A DNA stretch of 64,000 bases from Bacillales bacterium (lineage in GTDB: Bacteria; Bacillota; Bacilli; Bacillales; DASSOY01), in the NCBI GenBank assembly GCA_035700025.1, contig DASSOY010000072.1, forward strand, positions 1-64,000, given 5' to 3'. The position numbers and the translations under genes were made by a program. Every line of letters begins with the position of its first letter. The first letter of the stretch is position 1. Below are positions 1,615 through 35,746 of this stretch, piece by piece. The notes beneath the pieces were generated by a model that had not been told where the DNA came from, did not search any database, and worked only from the letters and a program-made list of their open reading frames with translations.

Positions 1615-2514
1615 ATGAGTGTGTATGTCAATAAAGACACGAAAGTGATCGTTCAAGGAATCACCGGTTCCCAAGGTTTGTATCATACGAAACAAATGCT
1701 TGAATACGGAACGAAGATCGTTGGAGGCGTGACTCCGGGCAAAGGCGGCACGGAAATTGAAGGTGTGCCTGTATTTAACACGGTACAGGAAGCGGTTGAA
1801 GCGACCGGTGCAAATGCGTCCATCATTTACGTACCGCCTGCGTTTGCTGCGGATGCGATTGTGGAAGCGGTTGACGCAGAACTTGACCTTGCCATCTGTA
1901 TTACAGAGCATATTCCAGTGCTTGACATGGTAAAAGTGAAGCGTTACATGGAAGGCAAAAAGACTCGTTTGATTGGTCCGAACTGCCCGGGTGTCATCAC
2001 GCCTGAAGAGTGTAAAATTGGTATTATGCCTGGTTACATTCATAAAAAAGGTCATGTCGGCGTTGTATCTCGCTCTGGTACCCTCACTTACGAAGCGGTT
2101 CATCAGTTAACGCAGTCCGGCATCGGCCAATCGACGGCTGTCGGCATCGGCGGCGATCCGGTAAACGGAACGAACTTTATCGACGTGCTTGAGGCTTTCA
2201 ATGAAGATGACGAAACGAAAGCGGTCATCATGATCGGCGAAATCGGCGGCACGGCTGAAGAAGAAGCTGCCGAATGGATCAAGGCGAACATGTCGAAACC
2301 AGTTGTCGGCTTCATCGGCGGCCAAACGGCGCCTCCGGGGAAACGGATGGGTCATGCCGGAGCGATCGTTTCCGGTGGGAAAGGAACGGCTTCGGAAAAG
2401 ATCAAGACGTTGAATGCTTGTGGTATTGAAGTAGCTGAAACTCCAGCGGTAATCGGCGAAACGTTGATTTCTGTTTTGGAACAACGCGGATTGTTGGAAA
2501 AAGTCAAAGGTTAA
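1615..2514 (+). CDS. sucD: Succinyl-CoA ligase (ADP-forming), alpha subunit
   Basis: The alpha subunit (299 residues) binds CoA and carries the phosphorylated histidine. The N-terminal CoA-binding Rossmann motif ([11 protein letters not shown]) and the [10 protein letters not shown] motif are clear. The C-terminal ligase part includes [15 protein letters not shown] and [14 protein letters not shown], where the His of GHAGA is the phospho-histidine of the family. An ATG four bases upstream (1611) is out of frame and ends at once, so 1615 is the start, behind AAAGGCGGG. A strong terminator follows. Confidence 0.97.
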
Positions 2515-2522
2515 ACATCACG

Positions 2523-2552
2523 AATCCCCTCGACTGACGAGGGGATTTTTTC
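2523..2552 (+). terminator. Intrinsic terminator after sucCD
   Basis: AATCCCCTCG (2523-2532), loop ACTGA, CGAGGGGATT (2538-2547), then T-run to about 2551. A perfect 10-bp stem with a U-tract. Confidence 0.9.
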
Positions 2553-2621
2553 CGTACGGCTTTACTTGTGATGTCCTTTTGCCGATGGTATATATGGAAA
2601 CCGATGAAAGAGGTGAGGCGG

Positions 2622-3485
2622 TTGAATGAGCAGGCGGATGTACGCCGGCGATTGATCCATATTCATGAATGCCGCGGGGCAGGCTGGAAGACGATCGCAA
2701 AGTTTTTGCAAGCTGATGCGACGCTTGCCTCGATTTTTACTTATTCACAATCCGAGTTCATCAAGCGATTTTCGATGACCGGTGAATACGCAAAACGATT
2801 TTATGAAGACTTACATACGATTAACGTGGCAGAAAAACTCGACCTTTACCGACGCCGTGGAATCGAGATCGTGACAAGATTCGACGATCGTTATCCTCCG
2901 CTCCTGAAGCATATTTTCGATCCGCCCTGGGTATTGTATTGCCGTGGGAACGTGTCGCTGTTTCAACAATCGGACATGCTGAGCGTCATCGGAACGCGAA
3001 ATCCTTCTTCCTACGGTTTGAAAGTGCTGCGCCATTTGCTTTTGCCGCTCGTTCGATCCGGCCGCGGCATCGTCAGCGGTTTGGCAGAGGGGATTGACAG
3101 CGCTGCTCATCGCCTTGCCTTGCAGAGTGCGACAATTGCCGTGCTCGGATCAGGCTTGTTCCATGTTTATCCGAAAAGCGAACGGGACCTTTTCGAGCAA
3201 ATTGGACGCTCTCACTTGCTTATCAGCGAATTCCCTCCGGATACACCTGCGCGGCCGTGGCAATTTCCGCTCAGAAACCGCATCATCAGCGGACTTACGA
3301 AAGGGACACTCGTCGTCGAGGCTAGGGAAAGAAGTGGAACGTTAATTACGGCGGACCAAGCGCTTGAGCAAGGACGGGACGTTTATGCCGTTCCCGGTTC
3401 CGTGTTCGAACCGCGGTCAGCGGGGACAAATCACCTCATTCAACAAGGAGCCCGGCTGGTCACGGACGCTTCTGATTTGCAATGA
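2622..3485 (+). CDS. dprA: DNA-processing protein DprA (Smf)
   Basis: DprA binds incoming single-stranded DNA and loads RecA during transformation. The Rossmann-like core is plain: VIGTRNPSSYG, SGLAEGIDSAAHR, AVLGSGLFHVYP, LISEFPPDTP and the FPLRNRIISGL signature. I chose TTG at 2622 because AGAGGTGAG lies 5 bases before it, giving 287 residues. The same frame opens upstream with ATGs at 2568 and 2604, but these lack a ribosome binding site. No C-terminal winged-helix domain is present, as in B. subtilis. The gene lies after the sucCD terminator; no strong promoter of its own was seen. Confidence 0.93.
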   Translation: MNEQADVRRRLIHIHECRGAGWKTIAKFLQADATLASIFTYSQSEFIKRFSMTGEYAKRFYEDLHTINVAEKLDLYRRRGIEIVTRFDDRYPPLLKHIFDPPWVLYCRGNVSLFQQSDMLSVIGTRNPSSYGLKVLRHLLLPLVRSGRGIVSGLAEGIDSAAHRLALQSATIAVLGSGLFHVYPKSERDLFEQIGRSHLLISEFPPDTPARPWQFPLRNRIISGLTKGTLVVEARERSGTLITADQALEQGRDVYAVPGSVFEPRSAGTNHLIQQGARLVTDASDLQ

Positions 3486-3562
3486 AACGTCACATCACGC
3501 CCGCGTTTTTTCGCGCTTTTTCGGAAGGGATCGATCTTTTTGTCAAGCACGGCAACGGCTCA

Positions 3563-3607
3563 GTCAAATGAATCATATTTGACAAATGGGGAATCAATCT
3601 TTAATAT
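3563..3607 (+). promoter_or_regulatory. Sigma-A promoter of topA with overlapping dyad
   Basis: TTGACA (3579-3584), 17-bp spacer, TAATAT (3602-3607): a near-consensus promoter. A 7-bp inverted repeat, GTCAAAT (3563-3569) and ATTTGAC (3577-3583), overlaps the -35 box and could be an operator. The topA start lies about 45 bases downstream. Confidence 0.75.
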
Positions 3608-3651
3608 GGGTGAAGATTTAGTAAAGACAAACGGAAGGGAGAAACGTCAAG

Positions 3652-5721
3652 ATGGAAGATTATCTCGTGATCGTTGAATCTCCCGCTAAGGCGAAGACGA
3701 TAAAGAGATATTTAGGGAAAAAATATACCGTGAAAGCTTCTATGGGTCACGTCCGTGATTTACCGAAAAGTCAAATGGGCGTGGACGTTGAACAAAACTA
3801 TACCCCGAAATATATTACCATTCGCGGGAAAGGCGACGTTTTGAAAGATTTAAAAAGTGCGGCGAAGAAAGCAAAAAAAGTCTTTCTTGCTGCCGACCCC
3901 GATCGTGAAGGGGAAGCGATCGCCTGGCATTTGGCGAACAGTTTGCAAATCCCGGAAGATTCCGAGTGCCGGGTCGTGTTTAACGAGATTACGAAAGACG
4001 CGATCAAGGATGCGTTCAAACATCCGCGCTCGATCAACATGGATCTTGTTGATGCCCAGCAGGCGAGAAGAATTTTGGACCGGCTTGTCGGCTACAACAT
4101 CAGCCCGCTGCTATGGAAAAAGGTGAAAAAAGGGTTGAGCGCCGGGCGCGTGCAGTCAGTTGCGGTTAAGTTAATCATTGACCGCGAGAAGGAAATCCAA
4201 AACTTCGAGCCTGAGGAATACTGGTCGATCAAAGGGCGATTCAAGACAGACGGCGAATCGTTTGAAGCCCAGTTTTACGGACTGGACGGCAAGAAAAAGG
4301 AACTTCACTCAGAAGGCGACGTCAAAGCGGTGTTGAAGAGGCTCAAGAAGAACGACTTCATCGTTAAAGAAGTTGAGAAAAAAGAAAGGCGCCGCAACCC
4401 TGCCTTGCCTTTCATTACCTCATCTTTGCAACAAGAGGCGGCGCGAAAGCTGAATTTCCGGGCAAGGAAAACGATGATGCTCGCCCAACAACTGTATGAA
4501 GGAATTGAGATCGACAAAGGCGGAACGACCGGTTTGATCACGTATATGCGCACGGACTCTACACGTTTGTCAGAAACGGCGCAAACGGAAGCCAAGGACT
4601 ATATATTAAAGACTTACGGCAATGACTATGTGAGAAAAGGGAAAGCGAACCAAAAAAAGAACGAAAATGCGCAAGATGCCCACGAGGCGATTCGGCCGAC
4701 TTCGGCTTCTCGTGATCCGAAATCAATGAAACCGTATTTGAGCCGTGATCAGTATCGGCTTTACAAACTTATATGGGAACGGTTCATCGCCAGTCAAATG
4801 GCTCCGGCCGTCATGGATACGGTACGGGCCGACCTGGAACAAGAAGGGGTCGTTTTCCGGGCTAACGGCTCTAAAATTAAGTTTGCCGGTTTCATGAAAG
4901 TTTACATTGAAGGAACGGATGATAAGAAGAAAGAAGAGCAAACCTTTCTTCCCGAACTTCGGGAAGGAAAGACTGTTGCGAAAGAAAATCTCGAGCCGAA
5001 CCAACATTTTACCCAACCGCCGCCGCGTTACACGGAAGCGCGTCTTGTCAAAACATTGGAGGAACTTGGGATCGGGAGACCGTCAACTTATGCCCCGACG
5101 CTCGATACGATCCAGCGTCGCAATTACGTGCAACTGGACGGAAGAAACTTCGTACCGACCGAACTCGGTGAGATCGTGTTAGAATTAATCGTCGACTTCT
5201 TCCCGGAAGTACTCGATGTTGAATTCACCGCGAAAATGGAAAATGAATTGGACGAAATCGAGGAAGGCAAGGAAAATTGGGTTGAAATCATCGACGAGTT
5301 TTACCGCGGCTTCGAGAAGCGGTTGAGGCATGCGGAAAAGGAAATGAAAGAAGTTGAGATCAAAGACGAACCAGCGGGTGTCGAATGTGAAAAATGCGGC
5401 AGCGAAATGGTTTACAAAATGGGGCGATACGGAAAATTCATGGCATGCTCGAATTTTCCCGACTGCCGGAATACGAAACCGATCTTGAAAAAGGTCGACG
5501 TTCCGTGTCCGAAATGCGAAAAAGGCGAGGTCGTCGAACGCCGCAGCAAAAAACGAAGAATCTTTTACGGATGCGATCGTTATCCGGAATGCGAATTTGT
5601 CTCGTGGGATAAACCGATCAGCCGCAAATGTCCGAAATGCGCACAAATGCTTGTCGAGAAAAAATCAAAGAAAAAAGGCACGACGGTTCAATGCAGCCAA
5701 TGTGACTATAAAGAAAGCTAA
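3652..5721 (+). CDS. topA: DNA topoisomerase I (type IA)
   Basis: This type IA topoisomerase (689 residues) relaxes negative supercoils. The TOPRIM domain is at the N-terminus ([11 protein letters not shown] at 7-17, metal-binding DPDRE at 82-86). The catalytic tyrosine is Tyr298 in the [12 protein letters not shown] motif. The C-terminus carries three tetracysteine zinc ribbons (from about residues 580, 620 and 660), the usual Bacillus arrangement. Length matches the family. The ATG follows AAGGGAG. It has its own strong promoter. The gene that normally follows in B. subtilis, trmFO (gid), is missing. Confidence 0.97.
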
Positions 5722-5723
5722 GC

Positions 5724-5757
5724 AAATTTGCCGGAATCCAAATCAATTCCGAATTTT
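5724..5757 (+). terminator. Weak intrinsic terminator after topA
   Basis: CGGAAT (5732-5737) pairs with ATTCCG (5746-5751) over an 8-nt loop. The flanking AAATT and AATTT could extend the stem, and a short T-run follows. The stem is short, so efficiency is uncertain. Confidence 0.45.
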
Positions 5758-5778
5758 TCAACAAAATTGTGAAATCCA

Positions 5779-5818
5779 TTGTCAAAGCTCCTGAATTGTG
5801 GTACGATTTAGGAGCTTT
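5779..5818 (+). promoter_or_regulatory. Promoter of the xerC-hslVU-codY operon inside an inverted repeat
   Basis: TTGTCA (5779-5784), 17-bp spacer, TACGAT (5802-5807) resembles a sigma-A promoter. A perfect 9-bp inverted repeat, AAAGCTCCT (5784-5792) and AGGAGCTTT (5810-5818), brackets the -10 box. This could be an operator; regulator unknown. Confidence 0.6.
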
Positions 5819-5834
5819 CTGAGGTGAAATCGAT

Positions 5835-6731
5835 GTGAACGAACTTCACATTCAAGCGTACGTCGACTATTTGCGCATTGAGAAAAACTATTCGGATCAT
5901 ACGGTATCAGGATACCGAAAAGATATCGAGCAATTCATGTTGTTCATGAGGCAGCAAGCCATCGAATGTTTTGCTGCTGTTTCTTATGCCGACGTACGGC
6001 TTTATTTAACTGAATTGCATGCAAACGGTTACGCCAGGCGCACGATTTCCCGCAAATTGTCTTGCTTGCGCAGCATGTATCGATTTTTGGAAAGGGAAGC
6101 GATGATCGAAGACAATCCATTCGCCGGCGTCCGCACTCCGAAAGCAGGGATGCAGCTGCCTGAGTTTTTTTACAAAGAAGAATTGGAACGGCTTTTTTCG
6201 GTCAGCGACCGAACGACCGCGCTCGGACAAAGAAATCAAGCGCTTCTCGAACTACTATATGCGAGCGGACTTCGGGTGAGCGAATGTTGCGGATTGCGTG
6301 TGCACGATATCGATCCTTTCGTCGGTACGGTTTTTGTCAAGGGAAAAGGGCGCAAAGAAAGATATGTTCCGGTTGGCAGCTATGCCCTCGACGCCATCGC
6401 CGCTTACCTTGACGATGGGAGGAAAGCTTTGCTTGCCAAAGGGCATTTGGAAACGGATCGGCTGTTCTTGAATTATCGCGGTGAACCATTGTCTGAACGT
6501 GGAGTTCGGAAGATTTTGAATGATATGATGACAAATGCGGCTCTTCATCTCCATATCAGCCCTCACGTGCTGCGGCATACGTTTGCAACCCATTTGCTCA
6601 ACGAAGGCGCAGATTTGCGGGCGGTTCAGGAATTGCTCGGTCACTCGAATTTATCCTCGACGCAAGTGTATACGCATGTCACGAAAGAACGGCTGCGAGA
6701 AGTGTATCGCAACCATCATCCGAGAGCTTGA
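5835..6731 (+). CDS. xerC: Tyrosine recombinase XerC/CodV
   Basis: This site-specific recombinase (298 residues) resolves chromosome dimers at dif with XerD and FtsK. An N-terminal SAM-like DNA-binding domain spans about 1-90. The catalytic domain shows Arg147 (ASGLRVSE), a Lys near 169-171, His244 and Arg247 (HVLRHTF), His270 (LGHSN) and the nucleophile Tyr279. The GTG start at 5835 follows GAGGTGA. It begins the codV-clpQ-clpY-codY order; hslV follows after 23 bases. Symbol xerC and codV are synonyms here. Confidence 0.95.
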
Positions 6732-20617: not shown

Positions 20618-21610
20618 ATGGCTGATGTATTATCGCAAAACGAAATTGATGCTTTATTGTCGGCCATCTCAACGGGGGAAATGGATGCGGATGAACTCCG
20701 GGAGGAAAAGAAAGAGCGAGTAAGAGTTTATGACTTTAAAAGGGCGATGCGATTTTCGAAAGATCAAATTCGCAGTTTGACGAGAATTCATGAAAATTTC
20801 GCTCGCTTGTTGACGACTTTTTTTTCGGCACAGTTGAGGTCCTACGTGCAAATCACGGTTGCCTCGGTCGATCAACTTCCTTATGAAGAATTCATTCGCT
20901 CGGTCCCGAAAATGACCTTGCTGAACACGTTCGAAGCGTCTCCGTTGGAGGGACGTCTGCTAGTGGAAGTGAATCCCCATATTGCTTTTGCAATGATTGA
21001 CAGGGTTCTCGGTGGACAAGGTACAAGTATGAACAAGATTGATAATTTGACAGAAATCGAGTCGAACATCATGCAACGATTGCTCGGAAAGGCGCTGAAG
21101 AGTTTTCGGGACGCCTGGCAAACGGTCATTGAACTCGAAATTGGCAGTCAGGAGATGGAGGTTAATCCGCAGTTTTTGCAAATGGTGTCTCCGAACGAAA
21201 CGGTCGTCGTTATTTCATTGACGACGGTGATCGGCGAATCGAGCGGAATGATCAACATTTGTTTGCCGCATGTAGTTATTGAACCGGTGATTGAGAAATT
21301 GTCGATCCACTACTGGATGCAGGACAAAATGAAACAGCGCAAACCGGAGGAGTACGAACAGCTTAAAGAAAAGCTGCACGGTGCCCCGATCGTCATGAAA
21401 GCAGAGCTCGGACGTTCGGAAATATCCGTCCAGGAGTTTTTGCAACTCAATCGCGGAGATGTCATCGCGCTTGATCAGTTGATCGACAAACCGCTGACGC
21501 TCAGTGCTGGAAACCGACCGAAATTTTACGTGCAGCCCGGAAAGAAAGGCAGGAAGATGGCCGTACAGGTGATTGAAAACATTCCGAAAGGGGAGGGGCA
21601 TGATGAGTGA
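20618..21610 (+). CDS. fliM: Flagellar motor switch protein FliM
   Basis: FliM (330 residues) is part of the C ring and receives CheY-P. The N-terminal CheY-P-binding peptide (LSQNEIDALLSA) is present, followed by the CheC-like middle domain and the C-terminal SpoA/FliN-like domain (about 250-325). The start ATG follows GGGGGGA. It overlaps fliY by several bases. Confidence 0.97.
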   Translation: MADVLSQNEIDALLSAISTGEMDADELREEKKERVRVYDFKRAMRFSKDQIRSLTRIHENFARLLTTFFSAQLRSYVQITVASVDQLPYEEFIRSVPKMTLLNTFEASPLEGRLLVEVNPHIAFAMIDRVLGGQGTSMNKIDNLTEIESNIMQRLLGKALKSFRDAWQTVIELEIGSQEMEVNPQFLQMVSPNETVVVISLTTVIGESSGMINICLPHVVIEPVIEKLSIHYWMQDKMKQRKPEEYEQLKEKLHGAPIVMKAELGRSEISVQEFLQLNRGDVIALDQLIDKPLTLSAGNRPKFYVQPGKKGRKMAVQVIENIPKGEGHDE

Positions 21611-22772
21611 TGATCAGAAACTTTCGCAAGACGAGATTAATGCTCTTTTGAACAACGTGAACGACGATACCGACAAAAAAGAGGAAATCAATGAATACTT
21701 GTCCTCGATTGAAGTGGATACGATGGGAGAAATCGGAAACATTTCGTTCGGGACTGCTGCGACCGTCCTTTCGGAATTGTTGAGGCAAAAAGTTGAGATT
21801 ACGACACCGAAGCTTACAGTTGTGGAGTATGAAAGCTTGTCGGAACATTTTCCGCACCCGCACGTTGCCGTAACCGTAAATTATACGCAAGGATTCCAAG
21901 GATCGAACATTCTTGTGCTGAATTTGCGGGACGCAGGCGTCATCGCAGATTTGATGATGGGCGGCGAAGGCAAGAATCCGAAAGAAGTCATCGGCGATAT
22001 GGAAATGAGCGCGGTTCAAGAGGCGATGAACCAAATGATGGGCTCCGCTTCCACTTCAATGTCGTCGATGTTCAACAAAACGATCGACATTTCTCCACCG
22101 ATCGCCGACATGCTTGATTTTAACAATAAGAGCAGCGGAAATTCGCTGCAGTTTGACGACGTCATGTTAATGGTCATGTTCCGCTTGAAAATCGGCGACC
22201 TGATCGACTCGAACATTATGCATTTGCTGCCGATCGAATTCGCCAAAACAATGGTTGACGAACTGATGAATCCGGGAGAAAATTCATCTGCAAATGAGCC
22301 GTCATTTGCCGACGGAGAATCAGAAACGAACGAACCGGCATCCGCGGCATCCGAGTTAAACGAGCTTGGTGCGAACCATGAGACGACTGAGCCGATGAGT
22401 GATCGTTCCCAACCTGAGCGGCAACATTTAGGCAATGGTTCGACGGCGTCAAGGGACATCCAATCTGCAGTGTTTTCTGATTTTGAAGACAACGACGAGC
22501 TTCGAACACAAACACAAAACTTAAACATGTTGTACGACATTCCGTTGCAAGTGACGGTGGAACTCGGCCGCGCAACGCGTTCGGTGAAAGACATTCTCCG
22601 GTTGACACCGGGTTCTGTCATTGAACTGAACAAATTGGCCGGTGAACCTGTCGATATTTTCGTGAACAACAAAATGATTGCCCGAGGCGAAGTGGTCGTC
22701 ATTGATGAGAATTTCGGCGTTCGAGTAACAGAAATTGCCAGTCAAAAAGATCGATTGAAACGATTGCAGTAA
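21603..22772 (+). CDS. fliY: Flagellar motor switch phosphatase FliY
   Basis: FliY (389 residues) removes phosphate from CheY-P at the switch and supplies the FliN part of the C ring. The N-terminus has the CheY-binding motif (LSQDEINALLNN). Two CheC-type active sites are intact, each of the D/S-x3-E-x2-N form (DTMGEIGN and SAVQEAMN). A low-complexity linker (about 215-285) leads to the FliN-like C-terminal SpoA domain. ATG 21603 gives better spacing to GGAGG than ATG 21600. It overlaps fliM. Confidence 0.95.
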   Translation: MSDDQKLSQDEINALLNNVNDDTDKKEEINEYLSSIEVDTMGEIGNISFGTAATVLSELLRQKVEITTPKLTVVEYESLSEHFPHPHVAVTVNYTQGFQGSNILVLNLRDAGVIADLMMGGEGKNPKEVIGDMEMSAVQEAMNQMMGSASTSMSSMFNKTIDISPPIADMLDFNNKSSGNSLQFDDVMLMVMFRLKIGDLIDSNIMHLLPIEFAKTMVDELMNPGENSSANEPSFADGESETNEPASAASELNELGANHETTEPMSDRSQPERQHLGNGSTASRDIQSAVFSDFEDNDELRTQTQNLNMLYDIPLQVTVELGRATRSVKDILRLTPGSVIELNKLAGEPVDIFVNNKMIARGEVVVIDENFGVRVTEIASQKDRLKRLQ

Positions 22773-22798: not shown

Positions 22799-23161
22799 AT
22801 GGCTCATAAAATTTTGATCGTAGACGATGCCGCATTTATGAGAATGATGGTCAAAGACATTTTGACGAAAAACAATTTTGAAATCGCCGGCGAGGCCGGT
22901 GACGGCGCCGAAGCCGTCGAGAAATATCAAGAAACGTCGCCGGATCTTGTCATACTTGACATCACGATGCCGGAAATGGACGGATTGACCGCTTTGAAAG
23001 AAATTAAGAAAATCGACGGGGATGCGAAAGTGATTATGTGCTCGGCGATGGGACAGCAGGCGATGGTCATTGACGCGATTCAGGCCGGAGCGAAAGATTT
23101 CATCGTGAAACCTTTTCAGGCGGAGCGGGTGGTTGAAGCGATCAATAAAGCGTTGAGTTAG
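22799..23161 (+). CDS. cheY: Chemotaxis response regulator CheY
   Basis: A single-domain receiver of 120 residues: acidic pair Asp9-Asp10, phosphoacceptor Asp54 (VILDITMPEMDG), Ser82 at the conserved Ser/Thr site and Lys104 (IVKPF). It is phosphorylated by CheA and binds FliM/FliY. The ribosome binding site is GGAGGAG. Confidence 0.97.
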   Translation: MAHKILIVDDAAFMRMMVKDILTKNNFEIAGEAGDGAEAVEKYQETSPDLVILDITMPEMDGLTALKEIKKIDGDAKVIMCSAMGQQAMVIDAIQAGAKDFIVKPFQAERVVEAINKALS

Positions 23162-26652: not shown

Positions 26653-28686
26653 ATGCATCCTCGTGATGTCTCAGTGCTTGTCGGCGTCATTTTGATCATT
26701 GCGATGCTGATCATCCCGTTGCCGAACGTCATGCTGTCGGTGTTGATCATTGTAAACATTTCACTCGCTTTAGTGATCATTTTGGTGACCATGAACATGA
26801 ACGAACCGCTCGAATTTTCCATCTTTCCTTCGTTGTTGCTCTTAGCAACGTTATTCCGTCTTGGACTCAACGTTTCGACAACACGGGCGATTTTAGGGAA
26901 AGGCGATGCGGGCAATGTCATCCATACATTCGGAGAATTCGTCATCGGCGGGAATCCTCTCGTCGGATTTGTCATCTTTCTCATTCTTGTCATTATTCAA
27001 TTCGTTGTCATTACGAAAGGTGCCGAACGTGTGTCCGAAGTCGCTGCCCGATTTACGCTTGATGCGATGCCGGGCAAGCAAATGAGTATCGATGCCGACA
27101 TGAACGCGGGGCTCATTTCCGACCGGGAAGCGAAACAAAGACGCGAAAAGGTTGAACGGGAAGCGGACTTTTACGGAGCAATGGACGGCGCAAGCAAATT
27201 TGTGAAGGGCGACGCGATCGCTGGTATTGTCATTGTTTCGATCAATATTATTTTCGGCATAATTATCGGCGTTGCGCAAAAAGGGATGTCACTTTCCGAT
27301 GCCGCACACAGTTATACGTTGCTTACGGTCGGCGACGGGCTGGTGAGTCAAATTCCAGCGCTCATTTTGTCAACGGCGACGGGGATCGTCGTCACTCGTG
27401 CCGCATCGGAAGGAAATCTCGGACACGACATCACGAAGCAGCTGCTCAGCTATCCGAAATTGCTGTATGCGGCAGGTGCGACGATCGCGATTCTCGGTCT
27501 TTTCACGCCGATCAACGATTTGCTTACACTGCCGATTGCGGCTTTGCTCTTCTTCGGCGGTTTTGTTCTAAACCGCAGCCAGGTGGCGGAGCTCGAAGAG
27601 GAACGCGAGTTGGAATCGGAAACCGAAGAGGAGATGAAGTCGCCGGAAAGCGTCATCCAGCTTTTGTCGATGGACGCCATTGAATTTGAGTTCGGTTACG
27701 GACTCATTCCGCTCGCGGACGTGAACCAAGGCGGCGATTTGTTGGATCGAGTGGTTATGATTCGGCGGCAGTTGGCGCTTGAGCTTGGATTGGTCATTCC
27801 GGTTGTGCGCATCAGGGACAACATTCAACTGGAGCCGAATCAATATCGGATCCGTATCAAAGGCAACGATGTCGCCGGCGGAGAAGTTTTATTGGATCAT
27901 TATTTGGCCATGAGTCCCGGTGTTGAAGACGACACAATCGAAGGCATAAAAACGACTGAGCCCGCTTTCGGACTGCCCGCGATTTGGATCAACGACGAAA
28001 TGAAAGACCGCGCTGAATTGGCCGGCTATACGATCGTCGATCCGCCGTCTGTTGTTTCTACACACTTGACCGAGGTTATCAAAAAACACGCCTTTGAATT
28101 GCTCGGTCGCCAAGAAACAAAGCAGCTGATTGATCATTTGAAAGAAGATCATCCAACGCTCGTCGAAGAAGTCCATCCCGATCCTTTATCCGTCGGGGAC
28201 ATTCAAAAAGTGCTGGTCAATTTACTTAGGGAGAACGTTTCCATCCGCAATTTGCCGGTGATCTTTGAAACGCTTGCCGATTACGGAAAAATGACGAAAG
28301 ACGGTGATTTGTTGACGGAATACGTTCGTCAGTCTCTCTCGAGACAAATCAGCAAACAATTTGCGAACGAGAATGAACCGTTGAAAGTCATAACGATTTC
28401 TGGAACGACGGAGAAAAAATTCGCTGATGCCGTCGAGCAAACGGAACACGGCAATTACTTGGCACTCGACCCTGAATCGACGCAACGATTTTATGATGCT
28501 GCGGCAAAAGAATTGCAGCAATTGAAATCGGCCGATCAATCACCGGTTATCTTATGTTCACCGGCGATCAGGATGTATGTCCGCCAGCTGTTGGAACGAT
28601 TTTTGCCCGATGTTGCCGTGTTGTCGTACAACGAATTGGAACCGACCATTGAAGTCCAAAGTCTCGGGGTGGTGAATCTTCCATGA
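26653..28686 (+). CDS. flhA: Flagellar type III export protein FlhA
   Basis: FlhA (677 residues, the same as B. subtilis) is the export-gate channel and docking platform. About eight N-terminal membrane helices surround the conserved FHIPEP-type loop (SEVAARFTLDAMPGKQMSIDADMNAG). The cytoplasmic domain begins near 310 with ESPESVIQ-like KSPESVIQLL. ATG 26653 follows AAAGGAAG; the in-frame TTG at 26635 precedes that site and is rejected. Confidence 0.97.
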   Translation: MHPRDVSVLVGVILIIAMLIIPLPNVMLSVLIIVNISLALVIILVTMNMNEPLEFSIFPSLLLLATLFRLGLNVSTTRAILGKGDAGNVIHTFGEFVIGGNPLVGFVIFLILVIIQFVVITKGAERVSEVAARFTLDAMPGKQMSIDADMNAGLISDREAKQRREKVEREADFYGAMDGASKFVKGDAIAGIVIVSINIIFGIIIGVAQKGMSLSDAAHSYTLLTVGDGLVSQIPALILSTATGIVVTRAASEGNLGHDITKQLLSYPKLLYAAGATIAILGLFTPINDLLTLPIAALLFFGGFVLNRSQVAELEEERELESETEEEMKSPESVIQLLSMDAIEFEFGYGLIPLADVNQGGDLLDRVVMIRRQLALELGLVIPVVRIRDNIQLEPNQYRIRIKGNDVAGGEVLLDHYLAMSPGVEDDTIEGIKTTEPAFGLPAIWINDEMKDRAELAGYTIVDPPSVVSTHLTEVIKKHAFELLGRQETKQLIDHLKEDHPTLVEEVHPDPLSVGDIQKVLVNLLRENVSIRNLPVIFETLADYGKMTKDGDLLTEYVRQSLSRQISKQFANENEPLKVITISGTTEKKFADAVEQTEHGNYLALDPESTQRFYDAAAKELQQLKSADQSPVILCSPAIRMYVRQLLERFLPDVAVLSYNELEPTIEVQSLGVVNLP

Positions 28687-29771
28687 AAATAAAAAAATTT
28701 ACCGCGCCGACGATGCCGGAAGCTATGAAGCTCATACGAAAATCTCTTGGTACGGATGCGATCATTCTCCATTCAAAAGAGGTCGACAAAGGCGGTTTTT
28801 TCGGCTTTTTCGCGAAAAAGCATCTCGAAGTGATTGCGGCCGTCGATCCGGACGGACAGCCAAACGAACCCCGAAGCAAACAGCCGCAACCGATTGCCAA
28901 CGGGACAGCTTTTTCAGAACGGTTCGACTTGGAATGGTTGGAAGGAGAACTGCGCCAGTTGAAAGCGCCTCAGTATCCCGGTCCGTTGGCACAGATTCAT
29001 GATTTTCTTGTCGATCATGAAATCGAACCGAAATACACCGATTCGTTCATGCAAGATTTGCTGAAAACGTGGTATCGACAAGAGGAAGCGATGAAGAAGC
29101 CGGAATTGTATCGAAAACTGCACGAGTTGCTTGTCGAAAGGTTAGAGCAAAACGAAGGGCTTCCGTTCCGGTATGAAAAAAAATATTTAGTGTTTGCCGG
29201 CCCGACGGGGGTCGGGAAAACGACAAGCTTGGCGAAGATCGCTGCGAAAGCGAAAATCGACGAAGGAAAGTCGATCGCATTCATTACCGCCGATACCTAT
29301 CGAATCGCCGCGGTCGATCAGCTCAAGGCGTACGCTGATATTTTGAACGTCCCGATCGAAGTCGCATACACAAAAGAAGACTTCCGTAAAGCAAAAAAAA
29401 TGTTTGCGGACCGCGATCTCGTGCTGATCGACACGGCCGGAAGAAATTACAAACAATCCACTTACATCGACGAATTGAAAAGCTTGATTTCGTTCGGAGC
29501 CGATACGGAAACTTGGCTCGTTCTTGCTGCGACGGCTAAATACAACGATATGAGGTCGATTGTGAACAAATTTCGTTCCCTTCCGCCGGACCGCCTCGTG
29601 TTTACGAAAACAGATGAAACGACGAGATACGGGACGCTCGTAAATCTTTCGTTGAGTGAACGACTGCAACCGGAATTTATCACAAACGGCCAAAATGTAC
29701 CGGATGATCTTGTGAAAGCAACACCTCGCCGGATTGCCGGAATGGTGACGGGAGTGGAGACGGATGCTTGA
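28683..29771 (+). CDS. flhF: Signal-recognition-particle-like GTPase FlhF
   Basis: FlhF (362 residues) is an SRP-family GTPase that controls the place of flagellar assembly. The N-terminal B domain is basic (MKIKKFTAPTMPEAMKLIRKSLG). The NG domain carries the P-loop [15 protein letters not shown] near 178-192 and the ADTYRIAAVDQL motif. The guanine-specific TKTDET-like motif is VFTKTDETTRYG. It overlaps flhA by 4 bases and flhG by 8. Confidence 0.96.
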   Translation: MKIKKFTAPTMPEAMKLIRKSLGTDAIILHSKEVDKGGFFGFFAKKHLEVIAAVDPDGQPNEPRSKQPQPIANGTAFSERFDLEWLEGELRQLKAPQYPGPLAQIHDFLVDHEIEPKYTDSFMQDLLKTWYRQEEAMKKPELYRKLHELLVERLEQNEGLPFRYEKKYLVFAGPTGVGKTTSLAKIAAKAKIDEGKSIAFITADTYRIAAVDQLKAYADILNVPIEVAYTKEDFRKAKKMFADRDLVLIDTAGRNYKQSTYIDELKSLISFGADTETWLVLAATAKYNDMRSIVNKFRSLPPDRLVFTKTDETTRYGTLVNLSLSERLQPEFITNGQNVPDDLVKATPRRIAGMVTGVETDA

Positions 29772-30612
29772 CCAGGCCGACCAATTGCGAAGAAAAATGA
29801 AGCGCACGCGTGTCATTTCTGTCATCAGCGGGAAAGGAGGCGTCGGAAAATCCAATGTGTCGTTGAATTTTGCGATTGCGCTACGCCGCCTCGGGAAAAA
29901 CGTCATTTTAATCGATCTTGACATCGGCATGGCGAACCTCGACATTTTGATGGGTGTCATTCCTGCCCGCTCGATCGTCGACATGTTGGAGCAGCGCCTT
30001 GCGATTTCCGACATTGTTGAAAGAGGCACAGGAGGGATTCCATTTATCGCGGGCGGAACGGGACTTGCCGAAGTCGTTAGACTCGACGAGCGTAAAAGAA
30101 GCCATTTCTTGCAGCAACTGCAAGCGTTGGAACAACAATTCGACGTCATTGTTTTTGACATGGGGGCCGGCGTGAGCGAGGACTTGTTGAATTTCATTTT
30201 GGCAAGCGACGAGATCTTTCTTGTCACGACACCGGAACCGACAGCGGTAACAGACGCTTATGCCGCGTTGAAATTCGTCGTTCGCCGCAGCCAATCGGCG
30301 ATTCCGATACGCATGATCGTCAATCGTTGCCATGATGCCGCAGAAGGTCGGGAGACCGCAATGCGCTTGCAAAAAGTAAGCGAGCAATTTTTGAATCAAC
30401 CGATTTCGTCTTTTCATTCTTTGCCGGATGATCGCACCGTATCGGATGCGGTGAAAGCAAGGGTTCCCGTTTTGCTTTACGGTCCGCGTGCGGACATTTC
30501 GAAAGCGATCACGAATCTGGCGGAACGATGGTGCGGACTTCCGGTCGAATCCGGCGGATTTTTGCGTAAATTAACCGGGTTTTTGCGCCGCGGCAAGGAG
30601 AAAGCACTATGA
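29764..30612 (+). CDS. flhG: MinD/ParA-like ATPase FlhG (YlxH)
   Basis: FlhG (282 residues) is a MinD-type ATPase that works with FlhF to set flagellar number and pattern. The deviant Walker A motif GKGGVGKS is at about 23-30, followed by NVILIDLDIGMANLDILMG. A C-terminal amphipathic tail is expected for membrane binding (FLRKLTGFLRRGKEK). It overlaps flhF and ends in an ATGA overlap with cheB. Confidence 0.95.
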   Translation: MLDQADQLRRKMKRTRVISVISGKGGVGKSNVSLNFAIALRRLGKNVILIDLDIGMANLDILMGVIPARSIVDMLEQRLAISDIVERGTGGIPFIAGGTGLAEVVRLDERKRSHFLQQLQALEQQFDVIVFDMGAGVSEDLLNFILASDEIFLVTTPEPTAVTDAYAALKFVVRRSQSAIPIRMIVNRCHDAAEGRETAMRLQKVSEQFLNQPISSFHSLPDDRTVSDAVKARVPVLLYGPRADISKAITNLAERWCGLPVESGGFLRKLTGFLRRGKEKAL

Positions 30613-31205
30613 GCGGGACGAAGTGGGTCGTTTGTATTGGAACTTCGACGGGAGGACCGGGTGCGTTACAAAAAGTTTTGACGAAATTGCCGCAATCGTT
30701 TCCTTCCCCATTGTTTATTGTTCAGCATATGCCGCCGAAATTCACGAAAGCCTTGGCTGAACGGCTCGATCATCATTCGAGCATTCGTGTTAAAGAAGCC
30801 GAAGACGGCGAAATGGCGCAAGCGGGAACAGCATACATTGCCCCTGGAGGGTTTCAAATGACCGTATCCGGAATTTTGACGGGAATTCAGCTGTGCGTAC
30901 GATCAGGAGCGGCAAGAGCCGGACACTGTCCTTCCGTTAACGAATTGTTCGATTCGGCGGCAAAACTGAAAAATTTTAAGAAATTGGCCGTTATAATGAC
31001 TGGGATGGGTTCCGACGGTGCGGAAGGATTGAAAGCGCTCGTGGAAAGTGGAAATACGTATGTGGTCGCTGAATCTGCCGCTTCCGCCGTTGTCTTCGGA
31101 ATGCCCCGAGCGGCCATTGAGACGATTGCGGTTAACGAAGTCTTGCACGTTGAGGAGATCGGTGCTTGTTTAACGGATACCATCACCCGCTCGCAAAGGA
31201 GTTGA
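30609..31205 (+). CDS. cheB: CheB methylesterase domain protein without a receiver domain
   Basis: CheB removes methyl groups from (and deamidates) chemoreceptors. Only the catalytic domain is present, 198 residues. The triad Ser13 (GTSTGG), His40 (VQHMP) and Asp136 (MTGMGSDGAEG) is intact. The usual CheB is about 350 residues with an N-terminal receiver domain that CheA phosphorylates. Here the ATG overlaps the flhG stop by 4 bases, so the receiver is truly absent and not mis-started. How its activity is controlled is unclear. Confidence 0.93.
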   Translation: MSGTKWVVCIGTSTGGPGALQKVLTKLPQSFPSPLFIVQHMPPKFTKALAERLDHHSSIRVKEAEDGEMAQAGTAYIAPGGFQMTVSGILTGIQLCVRSGAARAGHCPSVNELFDSAAKLKNFKKLAVIMTGMGSDGAEGLKALVESGNTYVVAESAASAVVFGMPRAAIETIAVNEVLHVEEIGACLTDTITRSQRS

Positions 31206-31208
31206 AAC

Positions 31209-33209
31209 ATGGAAACCGAACAATATTTAGACATGTTTTTGGACGAAAGCCGGGAACATTTGCAGCTCATGAATGACGGACTGTTGGCGCTCGAAAAACA
31301 ACCTTCTGACCTCCAAGTCGTTCAGGAAATTTTTCGCGGTGCCCACACATTGAAAGGCATGTCGGCCTCAATGGGGTTCACGGACATGGCGGAATTGACG
31401 CACAAGCTGGAGAATGTATTGGATGCCGTTCGCAACTTAGAACTGCCAGTAACGACCGAAGTGATCGACATTTTGTTGGAAGGCGCCGACCGGCTCGAAT
31501 TGATGACGGATGATTTGTCGTCAGGCGGGGACGGGAGTTTGGAAGTTGCCGGGACGGTGGAAAAACTAAACCGTCTATTGGAGGGGGAAAGCGGCGCGGA
31601 GGCTTCTGCGGCCGGAAGCGGGGACAGCGAAACGTTCGCGATTGACCAATACAAAGAAGCCGTCATTCGTCAATCACAGGACGAAGGATTTTCCGCATTT
31701 GTCGTTCGCGTCGTTTTGAATGAAGACTGCATGTTGAAAGCAGCACGCAGCGTCATGGTGTTTCAAGTGCTGGAAAACATCGGAGAAATCGTCCATGCGT
31801 CACCTTCGGTTGAGCAAATCGAGGAGGAGGCGTTCGACCAAGCTTTTTCGGTTTTGCTGCTTACACAACAAGAGAAAGAAACGATCGAAAGTCACATTAT
31901 GAACGTTTCGGAAATCGAAAACGTCGAAATCAGCGACTGGGTGCCGGCACAATCGGCGAACGAAGCGGCTGTGAAATCCGAAAGCGACAAGCCGAGTGGA
32001 GCGAATCAAACGAATTCACCGTCAAAACGAGCGAAAGCGAACGATGCCGGCCGCCGGACGGCAAGCAAAACGATTCGGGTCAACATCGAACGGTTGGATC
32101 AATTGATGAATTTGTTCGAAGAACTCGTGATCGACAAAAGCCGTCTGCAGCGATTGGCAAAAGAAATCAAAAACCATGAGTTGACCGAGGTTGTCGAAAG
32201 AATGACCCGCATTTCGGGGAACATGCAGGAAATGATCTTGGCGTTGCGAATGGTTCCGATCGATCAAGTGTTCGGCCGATTTCCGAAAATGGTCAGAGAT
32301 TTGTCGAAAGACTTAAACAAAAAAATTCGATTCCACGTCACCGGTGCCGAAACGGAATTGGACCGTACCGTCGTTGATGAAATCGGCGATCCGCTCATCC
32401 ATTTGCTGCGCAACTCGTTGGATCACGGCATCGAATCCCCGGAAGCGCGCGTGAAAAAAGGAAAGTCGGAGGAAGGCACGATTGAGATTCATGCGTATTA
32501 CAGCGGAAATCACGTGTTGATTGAAATCAAGGACGACGGGGCGGGCATTAATCGCGAAGCGGTTTTGAAAAAGGCGGTCGAAAACGGCGTCGTCGGTAAA
32601 GAAGAAGCCGAGGAGCTGAACGACAAGCAAGTGTACGAGCTGTTGTTCGCCTCGGGATTCAGTACCGCCGAAAAGATTTCCGATCTCTCCGGGCGCGGGG
32701 TCGGGCTTGATGTCGTCAAGAACAAGATCGAGTCGTTAAGCGGGAGAGTGGATGTCGATTCCGAGCCGGACAAGGGGACGACGTTTACGATCCAACTGCC
32801 GCTTACCTTGTCGATCATTCCAGTCATGCTTGTCCAAGTCGGCGCGGAAATTTATGCCGTTCCGCTTTCATCGATCGTCGAGATCGCCGTCATCGGGAAA
32901 GACGACGTTTACGATCCACATCATCACAAAATGGTTCACTATCGCGGCAAAATGATTCCGCTGTTGACGCTGAGAGAGCAATTTCAAGTGGAGGAAGACG
33001 ATCCAACTGCCGATACGTATCCGATTGTCATCGTGCGCAAAGGCGAAAAGTTCGCCGCCTTGCAAGTCGATGCTTTCATCGGCCATCAAGAAGTGGTGTT
33101 GAAGTCTCTCGGTGATTATTTCACACAAATTCCCGGAATTTCCGGCGCCACAATTCTCGGCAACGGAGAGGCAGCTTTGATCATTGATTGCAATACATTG
33201 ATCCCTTGA
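31209..33209 (+). CDS. cheA: Chemotaxis histidine kinase CheA
   Basis: CheA (666 residues) phosphorylates CheY. Domains in order: P1 phosphotransfer with His46 (RGAHTLKGMS), a P2-like receiver-binding domain (about 145-235), P3 dimerisation (from about 290), P4 HATPase kinase with the N-box (LRNSLDHGIE), G1 (IKDDGAGI) and G2 (SGRGVGLDVVK), and the C-terminal CheW-like P5. The ATG follows AAAGGAG, 3 bases after cheB. Confidence 0.97.
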   Translation: METEQYLDMFLDESREHLQLMNDGLLALEKQPSDLQVVQEIFRGAHTLKGMSASMGFTDMAELTHKLENVLDAVRNLELPVTTEVIDILLEGADRLELMTDDLSSGGDGSLEVAGTVEKLNRLLEGESGAEASAAGSGDSETFAIDQYKEAVIRQSQDEGFSAFVVRVVLNEDCMLKAARSVMVFQVLENIGEIVHASPSVEQIEEEAFDQAFSVLLLTQQEKETIESHIMNVSEIENVEISDWVPAQSANEAAVKSESDKPSGANQTNSPSKRAKANDAGRRTASKTIRVNIERLDQLMNLFEELVIDKSRLQRLAKEIKNHELTEVVERMTRISGNMQEMILALRMVPIDQVFGRFPKMVRDLSKDLNKKIRFHVTGAETELDRTVVDEIGDPLIHLLRNSLDHGIESPEARVKKGKSEEGTIEIHAYYSGNHVLIEIKDDGAGINREAVLKKAVENGVVGKEEAEELNDKQVYELLFASGFSTAEKISDLSGRGVGLDVVKNKIESLSGRVDVDSEPDKGTTFTIQLPLTLSIIPVMLVQVGAEIYAVPLSSIVEIAVIGKDDVYDPHHHKMVHYRGKMIPLLTLREQFQVEEDDPTADTYPIVIVRKGEKFAALQVDAFIGHQEVVLKSLGDYFTQIPGISGATILGNGEAALIIDCNTLIP

Positions 33210-33384
33210 CCGAATGACCGTGGAACGCTCGTTTGCAGAAATACAGTTACATACAGTTTGGAATTCGGCAAGTGAGCTGTTTTGAAACATTCCCATGCTT
33301 TCGGATTGCGAGATGTTTTGAGGGTTTCAGCTTGTTCGACAGCACTTTCCAGTCATATCGACTAATAAAGGAGGACATCATCCG
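33210..33384. other. 175-bp gap between cheA and cheW
   Basis: This gap is unusually long for the otherwise overlapping operon. It contains a short direct repeat ACAGTT (two copies about 33242-33258), but no convincing promoter, terminator or small gene. The cheW site AAAGGAGG ends it. Confidence 0.5.
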
Positions 33385-33861
33385 ATGACAACAGCGGTAA
33401 AATCGATTGTTTTTCAGTTGAACGACGAAGAGTATGGTGTGGAAATCCATCAAGTGCGCTCCATTGAGAAAATGCAGCCCGTCACGAGAGTTCCGAGAGC
33501 TCCCGGATTTGTGGCAGGGGTGATTAATTTGCGCGGCGTCGTCACGCCTGTCATCGATTTGCGAAAACGCTTCGACTTCGAAAAACTTGAAGAAACGGAA
33601 GAAACGCGAATGGTGATCGTGCACGTCGATGATATAGAGGTCGGATTGATCGTTGACGCCGCCAACGACGTCATCGACATTCCCGCCGATGCGATTGAGC
33701 CGCCTGACGACCTGGTCGGCGGCGTCAAGGCGGAATATTTGCGCGGCGTGGCAAAAATCGATAACCGGCTGCTCATTATGCTCAATTTGCGTAAGGTGCT
33801 TAATCCAGGAGAAATCGAAGAACTGCGTTCTTTTGAGGAAGAAGAACATGGAACTGCCTAG
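33385..33861 (+). CDS. cheW: Chemotaxis coupling protein CheW
   Basis: CheW (158 residues) couples receptors to CheA. It is a single CheW domain: VFQLNDEEYGVEIHQVRSIEKM near the start and the NLRGVVTPVIDLRKRF motif near 50-65. The ATG follows AAAGGAGG. Its last 14 bases overlap cheC. Confidence 0.97.
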   Translation: MTTAVKSIVFQLNDEEYGVEIHQVRSIEKMQPVTRVPRAPGFVAGVINLRGVVTPVIDLRKRFDFEKLEETEETRMVIVHVDDIEVGLIVDAANDVIDIPADAIEPPDDLVGGVKAEYLRGVAKIDNRLLIMLNLRKVLNPGEIEELRSFEEEEHGTA

Positions 33862-34456
33862 CGGCATCAGCTGGCGCCATCTTGATATATTGAAAGAAAT
33901 CGGGAACATCGGCGCCGGCCATGCGGCAACTGCGTTAGCGAAGTTGTTGAAGAAAAAAATCGAATTGGAAGTCCCGGACGCCGGAGTCGTGACGTTGAAC
34001 GAAATGTGCGAACATGCCGGCGGGGCGGAAACAGTGCTTACAACCATTTTTTTGCGAATCCGCGGGGACGTTCCAGGAAGTCTTTTTATCCTGTTCGCCG
34101 AATCGGAAGCACAGCATCTTGTCAAATGCTTGATTGGCTGCGGAAAAGACGAAGCTTTGGAACGATCGGTTTTGATGGAAACGGGAAACATTTTGGCGGG
34201 ATCGTTTTTGTCCGCGCTTTCGGACTTTACCGGTTTGAGTTTGCAGCCGACGCCGCCGACGCTCATCACTGACATGGCGGGCGCCGTTCTCGTCAGCGGA
34301 TTGGCAGAGGCTTCTCATTTTGGAGAACGGGCCATAATGATGGAGACGGCATTCACCCAATGGGCGGAGATGACAGGGCAATTTTTATACGTTCCGGATC
34401 CAGATGCTTTTGCGACGCTCTTTCAAGCATTGGGGGTCGACAACCGTGACGAATAA
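33848..34456 (+). CDS. cheC: CheY-P phosphatase CheC
   Basis: CheC (202 residues) dephosphorylates CheY-P and is stimulated by CheD. Both active-site motifs of the D/S-x3-E-x2-N type are intact (DILKEIGN near 14-21 and SVLMETGN near 108). ATG 33848 lies inside the end of cheW and has GAGGAAGAAG before it; longer frames upstream are shadows of cheW. It overlaps cheD at its 3-prime end. Confidence 0.95.
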   Translation: MELPSGISWRHLDILKEIGNIGAGHAATALAKLLKKKIELEVPDAGVVTLNEMCEHAGGAETVLTTIFLRIRGDVPGSLFILFAESEAQHLVKCLIGCGKDEALERSVLMETGNILAGSFLSALSDFTGLSLQPTPPTLITDMAGAVLVSGLAEASHFGERAIMMETAFTQWAEMTGQFLYVPDPDAFATLFQALGVDNRDE

Positions 34457-34946
34457 TGTCGGGAGTATTGTCAGCGTCGGGATTGCGGGCATTCATGTTG
34501 TTTCGGCTCCGCTTATTCTTCGTACCGTTGGTCTCGGTTCATGCGTCGGGCTTGTCCTGTTCGACTCCACGATAAAAGCCGCCGCGATGGCGCATATTAT
34601 GCTTCCCGATTCGTCGATTGCGAGAGGAACGGTCGAAAAACCGGGAAAATTCGCAGACACGGCGGTCGCCGAACTCGTAAAAATGTTGACGAGAAAAGGG
34701 GCGGATGTGAAACGGTTGAAGGCAAAAATGGCAGGCGGGGCGATGATGTTTTCGTTCACGACGATGAAGGAAGCGGCCGCCATCGGAAAACGTAACGTCG
34801 AAGCGATCGAAGCGCAGCTGAACAAGTACGGCATTAGAAAGGTTTCTGCGAAAGTCGGCGGAAACAAGGGGAGAACCGTTGAATTTGACGTTGAAAGCGA
34901 AATAATGCGGGTTCGCACCGTCAATGAAGGTGTTGTTGAGATTTAA
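34446..34946 (+). CDS. cheD: Chemoreceptor glutamine deamidase CheD
   Basis: CheD (166 residues) deamidates receptor glutamines and activates CheC. Catalytic Cys33 (GLGSCVG) and His50 (MAHIMLP) are present at the same positions as in B. subtilis. The GTG start at 34446 overlaps the end of cheC and follows GGGGGT. Confidence 0.95.
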   Translation: MTNNVGSIVSVGIAGIHVVSAPLILRTVGLGSCVGLVLFDSTIKAAAMAHIMLPDSSIARGTVEKPGKFADTAVAELVKMLTRKGADVKRLKAKMAGGAMMFSFTTMKEAAAIGKRNVEAIEAQLNKYGIRKVSAKVGGNKGRTVEFDVESEIMRVRTVNEGVVEI

Positions 34947-34957
34947 GGGGGATCCGA

Positions 34958-35746
34958 ATGGTTGATTCAATGAAAACGGAAGAAAAAATCCATTGGAAAA
35001 AGTGGATTGAAAACAAAGACCCCGAGGCGGGCGAACAATTGCTTCAATTGTATATGCCGCTCGTCAGTTATCACGTTCAGCGCATCGCCGTCGGGCTTCC
35101 GCGCGGAATCGATTCGGAAGAACTCCGCAGCCATGCGATGATCGGCCTTTATGACGCTTTAAACAAATTCGATGCCTCAAGGGATTTGAAGTTCGACACG
35201 TATGCGTCCTTCCGGATTCGCGGGGCGATTCTCGACGGTTTGCGAAAAGAGGACTGGATGCCGCGTTCCTTGCGGGAAAAAATTAGAAGAATCGAAAACG
35301 CGATTGAAGACTTGCAACAGCGGCACTTGCGGCCGGTGACGGCACAAGAAGTAGCCGAAGAAGTCGGTCTCGACGAGGAAGAAGTCGCGGCACTTCAGTC
35401 GGAAAGCTTTTTTTCGAACATCTTGTCAATGGACGAGGATACCGGCAGGGAAGAAGGTCCGGCTCACATTTTAATCGAAGACAAACGAGCGCGATTGCCG
35501 GAAAAAGAAGTAATCAAGGAAGAAACTTTACATCATTTAACGGAAATCATCCGAGGGTTGAACGAAAAAGAACAGCTCGTCGTCAGCTTATTTTACTATG
35601 AAGAGTTGACCTTGACGGAGATCGGAAAAGTTCTCGGCCTTTCCACTTCAAGAATTTCGCAAATCCATTCGAAAGCGTTGTTCCGTCTCCAGCAAGCCAT
35701 GATACAATCGAACATACATAAGTCAGAGTGGTATGAAGAGGGATAA
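34958..35746 (+). CDS. sigD: Flagellar RNA polymerase sigma factor SigD (sigma-28)
   Basis: SigD (262 residues) directs transcription of flagellin, motor, autolysin and chemoreceptor genes. Region 2 (SHAMIGLYDALNKFDASRDLKFDTYASFRIRGAILD) and region 4 (KEQLVVSLFYYEELTLTEIGKVLGLSTSRISQIHSKAL) are clear. The site is AAGGGGGA. It closes the fla/che operon with swrB, 3 bases away. Confidence 0.97.
   Translation: MVDSMKTEEKIHWKKWIENKDPEAGEQLLQLYMPLVSYHVQRIAVGLPRGIDSEELRSHAMIGLYDALNKFDASRDLKFDTYASFRIRGAILDGLRKEDWMPRSLREKIRRIENAIEDLQQRHLRPVTAQEVAEEVGLDEEEVAALQSESFFSNILSMDEDTGREEGPAHILIEDKRARLPEKEVIKEETLHHLTEIIRGLNEKEQLVVSLFYYEELTLTEIGKVLGLSTSRISQIHSKALFRLQQAMIQSNIHKSEWYEEG

Follow-up and report, generated by a model that had tools for sequence, protein, structure and literature searches.

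A CheB-type methylesterase without a receiver domain as the only CheB in a Bacillales draft assembly, and its recurrence in Bacilli

CheA phosphorylation of CheB is the textbook feedback loop of chemotaxis. The locus described here raises the question of how receptor demethylation is controlled when the methylesterase has no domain to be phosphorylated. The DNA analysed (the window; 64,000 nucleotides from contig DASSOY010000072.1 of a Bacillales bacterium, assembly GCA_035700025.1) contains a cheB gene (30609–31205, + strand) whose product, according to its open reading frame, Pfam search and structure alignment, comprises 198 aa and the methylesterase domain only.

CheB_methylest (PF01339) was the sole Pfam domain of this protein, matched with E = 1e-60 over profile positions 1–173 of 174, and the Pfam search gave no Response_reg match. 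Alignment with the Salmonella CheB structures 1chd and 1a2o paired Ser13, His40 and Asp136 (codons 30645–30647, 30726–30728 and 31014–31016, + strand) with Ser164, His190 and Asp286. The first-pass annotation had described a CheB of about 198 residues that starts at its catalytic domain and keeps this triad; frame, length, coordinates, Pfam result and alignment all bear this out. The gene is preceded by an AAGGAG ribosome-binding site (30595–30600, + strand), located within the end of flhG, 8 bases 5′ of the ATG. The ATG at 30609 shares the sequence ATGA with the flhG stop codon at 30610–30612 and therefore leaves no room for a receiver domain. The cheB frame opens 13 codons 5′ of this ATG, which is the only start codon ahead of the domain.

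A sequencing, assembly or start-codon artefact could conceal a normal CheB, and the survey described below contains such precedents: in G131, G177 and G298 a receiver lies next to cheB in another frame. Upstream of the window cheB, however, an examination of all frames revealed no receiver, whether whole, split or frameshifted, the preceding FlhG is complete (282 aa), with its stop overlapping the cheB start, and other, independent assemblies show the same arrangement. We consider an artefact highly improbable, and the earlier statement that the start overlaps the flhG stop and no receiver is encoded is confirmed by the shared ATGA, the complete FlhG and the empty upstream frames.

The protein has the catalytic domain, the triad and the che operon context of a CheB; the N-terminal receiver with its phospho-accepting Asp and the linker are missing. 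By sequence it is therefore classed as a CheB-type methylesterase and not as a CheB response regulator. As the phospho-acceptor is absent, CheA cannot activate it by phosphorylation, which supports the annotation on this point too.

The gene order at the locus, flhF-flhG-cheB-cheA-cheW-cheC-cheD-sigD, is conserved in Bacilli according to the locus comparison, for which flhF (28683–29771, + strand; named by place and homology to flhF of other loci) served as the reference. The further genes of the window described here are also on the + strand. Next to flhF lies flhG (29764–30612), and cheB is followed by cheA (31209–33209), which encodes Hpt, P2, dimerisation, ATPase and CheW-like domains and keeps both the phosphorylatable Hpt motif (AHTLKG) and the P2 domain. 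The CheW-domain gene cheW occupies 33385–33861. The gene cheC (33848–34456; likely start at Met66 of a long ORF opening at 33653) has both phosphatase motifs, [DS]xxxExxN-x22-P, intact, and cheD (34404–34946) encodes the CheD motifs LGLGSCV, MAHIMLP and GGAMMF. The gene sigD (34958–35746) completes the series. Elsewhere in the window are fliY (21573–22772), with two intact CheC-type phosphatase motifs of the same pattern and a FliN C-terminal domain, and cheY (22799–23161), a stand-alone receiver. A 342-codon frame antisense to cheW and cheC (33247–34275, − strand) had no Pfam match and is most likely a shadow ORF. Because this gene order is conserved and the same short form occurs in other genera, the short cheB is evidently not a chance product.

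The window belongs to a draft genome of 2.84 Mb in 90 contigs, the sole genome of its family in the comparison. Either a complete CheB or a receiver-only protein elsewhere in the genome could restore normal control, as the first-pass annotation had pointed out, and both were sought. The assembly, at 97.7% completeness, which makes a missed gene possible, contained no second CheB, so that the initial reading is upheld and the 198-aa protein stands alone. The 17 receivers of the genome include CheY, a Spo0F-like protein and 15 receivers fused to output domains (13 recognised by Pfam; L015 and L019 from the LuxR-type C-termini in their sequences); none is a receiver-only CheB partner. The single-domain receivers are CheY, encoded in the window, and the Spo0F-like protein, encoded between pyrG and fbaA.

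The annotation had also proposed looking for CheR and CheV. One CheR is present, on the same contig as cheB. A search for CheW domains in the genome returned only two genes, those for CheA and CheW, and therefore no CheV. With neither CheV nor a receiver-only partner found, CheA has no recognisable chemotaxis receiver left other than CheY. CheY thus seems to be the sole phospho-target of the chemotaxis kinase in this genome, which makes for an unusually simple circuit of the CheC/CheD type. The genome has two MCPs in total (L022 and L023, each with HAMP and signalling domains), far below the number in most relatives; both carry methylation-site motifs. One is short (433 aa) and seemingly almost without an extracellular sensor domain.

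The comparison of the locus proposed by the annotation was extended to a CheB survey of 397 genomes from the order, in which the match lists of 160 genomes were completed afterwards. About 309 genomes had a readable CheB frame, and 24 of these frames were short. The three genomes with a receiver adjoining in another frame (G131, G177 and G298) were set aside from the losses. A receiver-less CheB was the only CheB in 21 of the ~309 genomes, distributed over eight families including that of the window. Wherever flhG was present, the short cheB followed it directly, and it did so in other genera as well; the distance from flhG to the catalytic domain ranged from a 5-base overlap to 200 bases in short genes versus about 490–530 bases in genes with a receiver. 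Judged by these frames, the receiver-less CheB is a recurrent state in Bacilli and not an oddity of the window genome. Lederbergia citri (L077 = G342) and L. citrisecunda (L074) belong to the family with most cases, and two further cases from named genomes are Virgibacillus halotolerans (L119) and Gorillibacterium timonense (L120). A phylum-wide sample added three more short CheB frames. One (L175, genome G408, 1693–6407), from another class, lies in a clostridial-type operon cheW-cheA-cheY-cheD-cheB-cheR and encodes a genuine receiver-less CheB of 203 aa; the second (L177) follows cheA and has no receiver match, and the third (L176) is at a contig end. In L175 a stand-alone CheY gene adjoins cheA, and its CheB is independently receiver-less.

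The Ser/His/Asp triad was present in all 141 sequences compared, 24 receiver-less and 117 full-length CheBs, and close pairs of short cheB genes had dN/dS values of 0.08–0.31. The triad in all 24 short proteins, together with these values, indicates that the bare catalytic domain is maintained by purifying selection. This bears on the possibility that the window cheB is a remnant of a decaying methylation-based adaptation, with a non-functional or weakly functional product. The small number of MCPs in the window genome would agree with decay, as would the unusual residues in a conserved loop of the protein, GHCPSVN instead of GHRPSVD. However, the triad is intact, the gene has its ribosome-binding site and flhG overlap, the genome encodes CheR, methylation motifs persist in the MCPs, and the dN/dS values between short genes elsewhere are well below 1. 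A remnant is therefore an unlikely reading.

CheC and CheD were retained in the examined loci of receiver-less genomes. A link between receiver loss and CheV loss was considered but found no support: among the 20 remaining receiver-less genomes, at least 16 contain a CheV-sized CheW-domain frame. The window genome, without CheB receiver and CheV, is the most reduced of the set.

Several other departures were seen among these loci. In ten Bacilli (L119, L151, L154–L157, L166, L167, L170 and L171) there was no cheA match between cheB and cheC/cheD; in V. halotolerans (L119) cheW alone remains there, and in several of these genomes cheA and cheW adjoin each other elsewhere. The full-length cheB genes of L141 (G177), L143 (G131) and L153 (G298) are frameshifted between or within receiver and catalytic domain, and their close relatives are intact; either errors in sequencing or an early stage of receiver loss may account for this. 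In the Lederbergia relative G322, a CheW-domain frame (C1:1493613–1494020) has only 156 aa and no CheV-sized frame was found among the matches listed, whereas its relatives have a CheV-sized frame of about 304–322 aa; the short gene possibly represents a CheV that has lost its receiver too.

The tree of CheB catalytic domains required 10 state changes, at least five of them forced by well-supported branches. For a tree built from the adjacent genes (FlhF, FlhG, CheA, CheC, CheD and SigD), obtained by a quick search with SH-aLRT support only, the number was 11, at least nine of them forced. The loss in the window lineage falls on a branch that is long and isolated. Both trees are unrooted, and the change counts alone give no direction. 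In two cases the direction is that of loss. The congeners L149 (short) and L164 (full-length) have in common the flhG end, ribosome-binding site and TTG start 'TTGCAAAAAA', from which L149 runs straight into the catalytic domain, whereas in L164 a receiver and linker come first, closing with a further A-run. We infer an in-frame deletion between short repeats, an apparent excision. In the Lederbergia genome G362 (L158), sister to species without any receiver, the N-terminal 170 residues are present, yet Pfam recognises no receiver in them even at E ≤ 1. This N-terminus is evidently an eroded receiver.

Genomes with receiver-less CheB had a median of 6 MCPs (n = 21) versus 14 in those with full-length CheB (n = 24; Mann-Whitney test, p = 6e-5; p = 7e-4 by family means). 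The full-length set consisted of relatives and diverse controls, picked before MCPs were counted. Within-family contrasts all pointed in the same direction, for example 4 versus 14 in one genus. Tree-independent pairs were about 4 to 0, too few for significance (sign test, p about 0.06–0.13), and L158, with its eroded receiver, has 23 MCPs and does not fit a simple rule. Receiver loss thus seems to accompany a small receptor set in the genomes sampled, which is a lead rather than a result and hints at when the CheB phosphorylation loop is expendable.

What the bare domain does can be considered against published work on CheB. In the full-length protein, the receiver makes the active site less accessible, an effect relieved by phosphorylation; the catalytic domain of E. 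coli alone (CheBc) acts roughly like phosphorylated CheB (PMC5809149). Precise adaptation persists with CheBc, without phosphorylation feedback, because demethylation depends on receptor activity, although kinase activity becomes bimodal among the cells and their migration in soft agar is poor (PMC5809149). Given these defects, losing the receiver should carry a cost, unless some other feedback makes up for it. In B. subtilis, receptors are demethylated upon attractant addition and removal alike, and the modelling of Rao et al. (2004) led to the view that CheB phosphorylation 'makes little sense' in this organism and that the logical choice for carrying the feedback is CheY-P, probably acting with CheC and CheD (PMC340952).

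The behaviour of CheBc and the argument of Rao et al. together make a constitutive methylesterase, with feedback by CheY-P through CheC/CheD, the best reading. It is likely that the window CheB is a functional receptor methylesterase/deamidase that lacks receiver and linker, is constitutively active and has lost CheA control, with kinase feedback passing through CheY-P, CheC and CheD. By analogy with CheBc, the enzyme would be constitutively active once the receiver shielding its active site was gone. Demethylation would then be set by the number of receptors in a cleavable conformation and by CheB abundance, while CheR methylates. CheA phosphorylation would feed back only through CheY-P, which would draw CheD onto CheC, and CheC and FliY would remove CheY-P. 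We infer this CheY-P/CheC/CheD route for the window genome, and feedback carried by CheC/CheD is plausible there because both phosphatase motifs of CheC are intact and the genome encodes CheD. As most other receiver-less genomes carry CheV, the means of compensation may differ from genome to genome.

The receiver function might instead be supplied in trans, with CheY-P or CheC/CheD binding and controlling the bare catalytic domain. In favour of such an arrangement, no chemotaxis receiver other than CheY is left, and a single flagellar/chemotaxis cluster holds the genes. In addition, several receiver-less lineages show variation at positions 48, 83, 105, 106 and 111 of the catalytic domain, where conservation among full-length CheBs is at least 90%, so that a putative receiver-facing surface may have been relaxed or have changed its role. 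Yet variation at some of these positions is also seen in divergent full-length CheBs, which makes the shift non-specific, and no added partner-binding domain or extension was seen. We regard control in trans as improbable, and give similarly little credence to a new protein-protein link from CheY-P or the CheC/CheD exchange that would replace the lost receiver by feeding back on the demethylation arm. The constitutive enzyme with feedback through CheY-P, CheC and CheD is preferred.

The repeated loss of the receiver suggests that chemotaxis of these bacteria does not need the CheB feedback loop. Repeated natural loss, with the enzyme under selection and CheC/CheD retained in the examined loci, provides independent support for the proposal of Rao et al. 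(PMC340952), and the genomes with receiver-less CheB are ready natural test cases. In the literature covered, which mostly excludes subscription journals, we found no report of a natural receiver-less CheB as the sole CheB in flagellar chemotaxis.

Among known systems, the CheB of B. subtilis and other Bacilli shares with the window protein the locus order, the methylesterase domain, the triad and the CheA, CheC, CheD and SigD neighbours, but the window CheB has no receiver and linker and hence no target for CheA phosphotransfer. Engineered E. coli CheBc (residues 147–349; PMC5809149) is likewise a catalytic domain alone, without phosphorylation feedback; it is a laboratory construct, whereas the window form is natural, fixed and part of a system with CheC, CheD and FliY. 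FrzG of Myxococcus xanthus is a CheB homologue with a secondarily degenerate receiver (PMC4546325). Its role is in the Frz pathway of gliding reversal, which uses a hybrid kinase, and CheBs of this type are encoded together with frzCD, a hybrid CheA-receiver kinase and a tandem-receiver protein, while in the window the domain has been removed outright from a CheB of a flagellar che operon, the neighbours are flagellar genes and CheA ends with a CheW-like domain; the protein is thus not of the FrzG type. Closest in form are the CheBs of L. citri, L. citrisecunda, V. halotolerans and G. timonense, which also consist of the catalytic domain only, directly after flhG. They share about 47–52% protein identity with the window CheB and represent mostly separate losses by the trees; in V. 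halotolerans, unlike in the window, cheA does not adjoin cheB. Taken with these systems, the window CheB represents a known enzyme in a recurrent variant that has lost a domain; it is informative on which feedback loops matter and is not a new kind of system.
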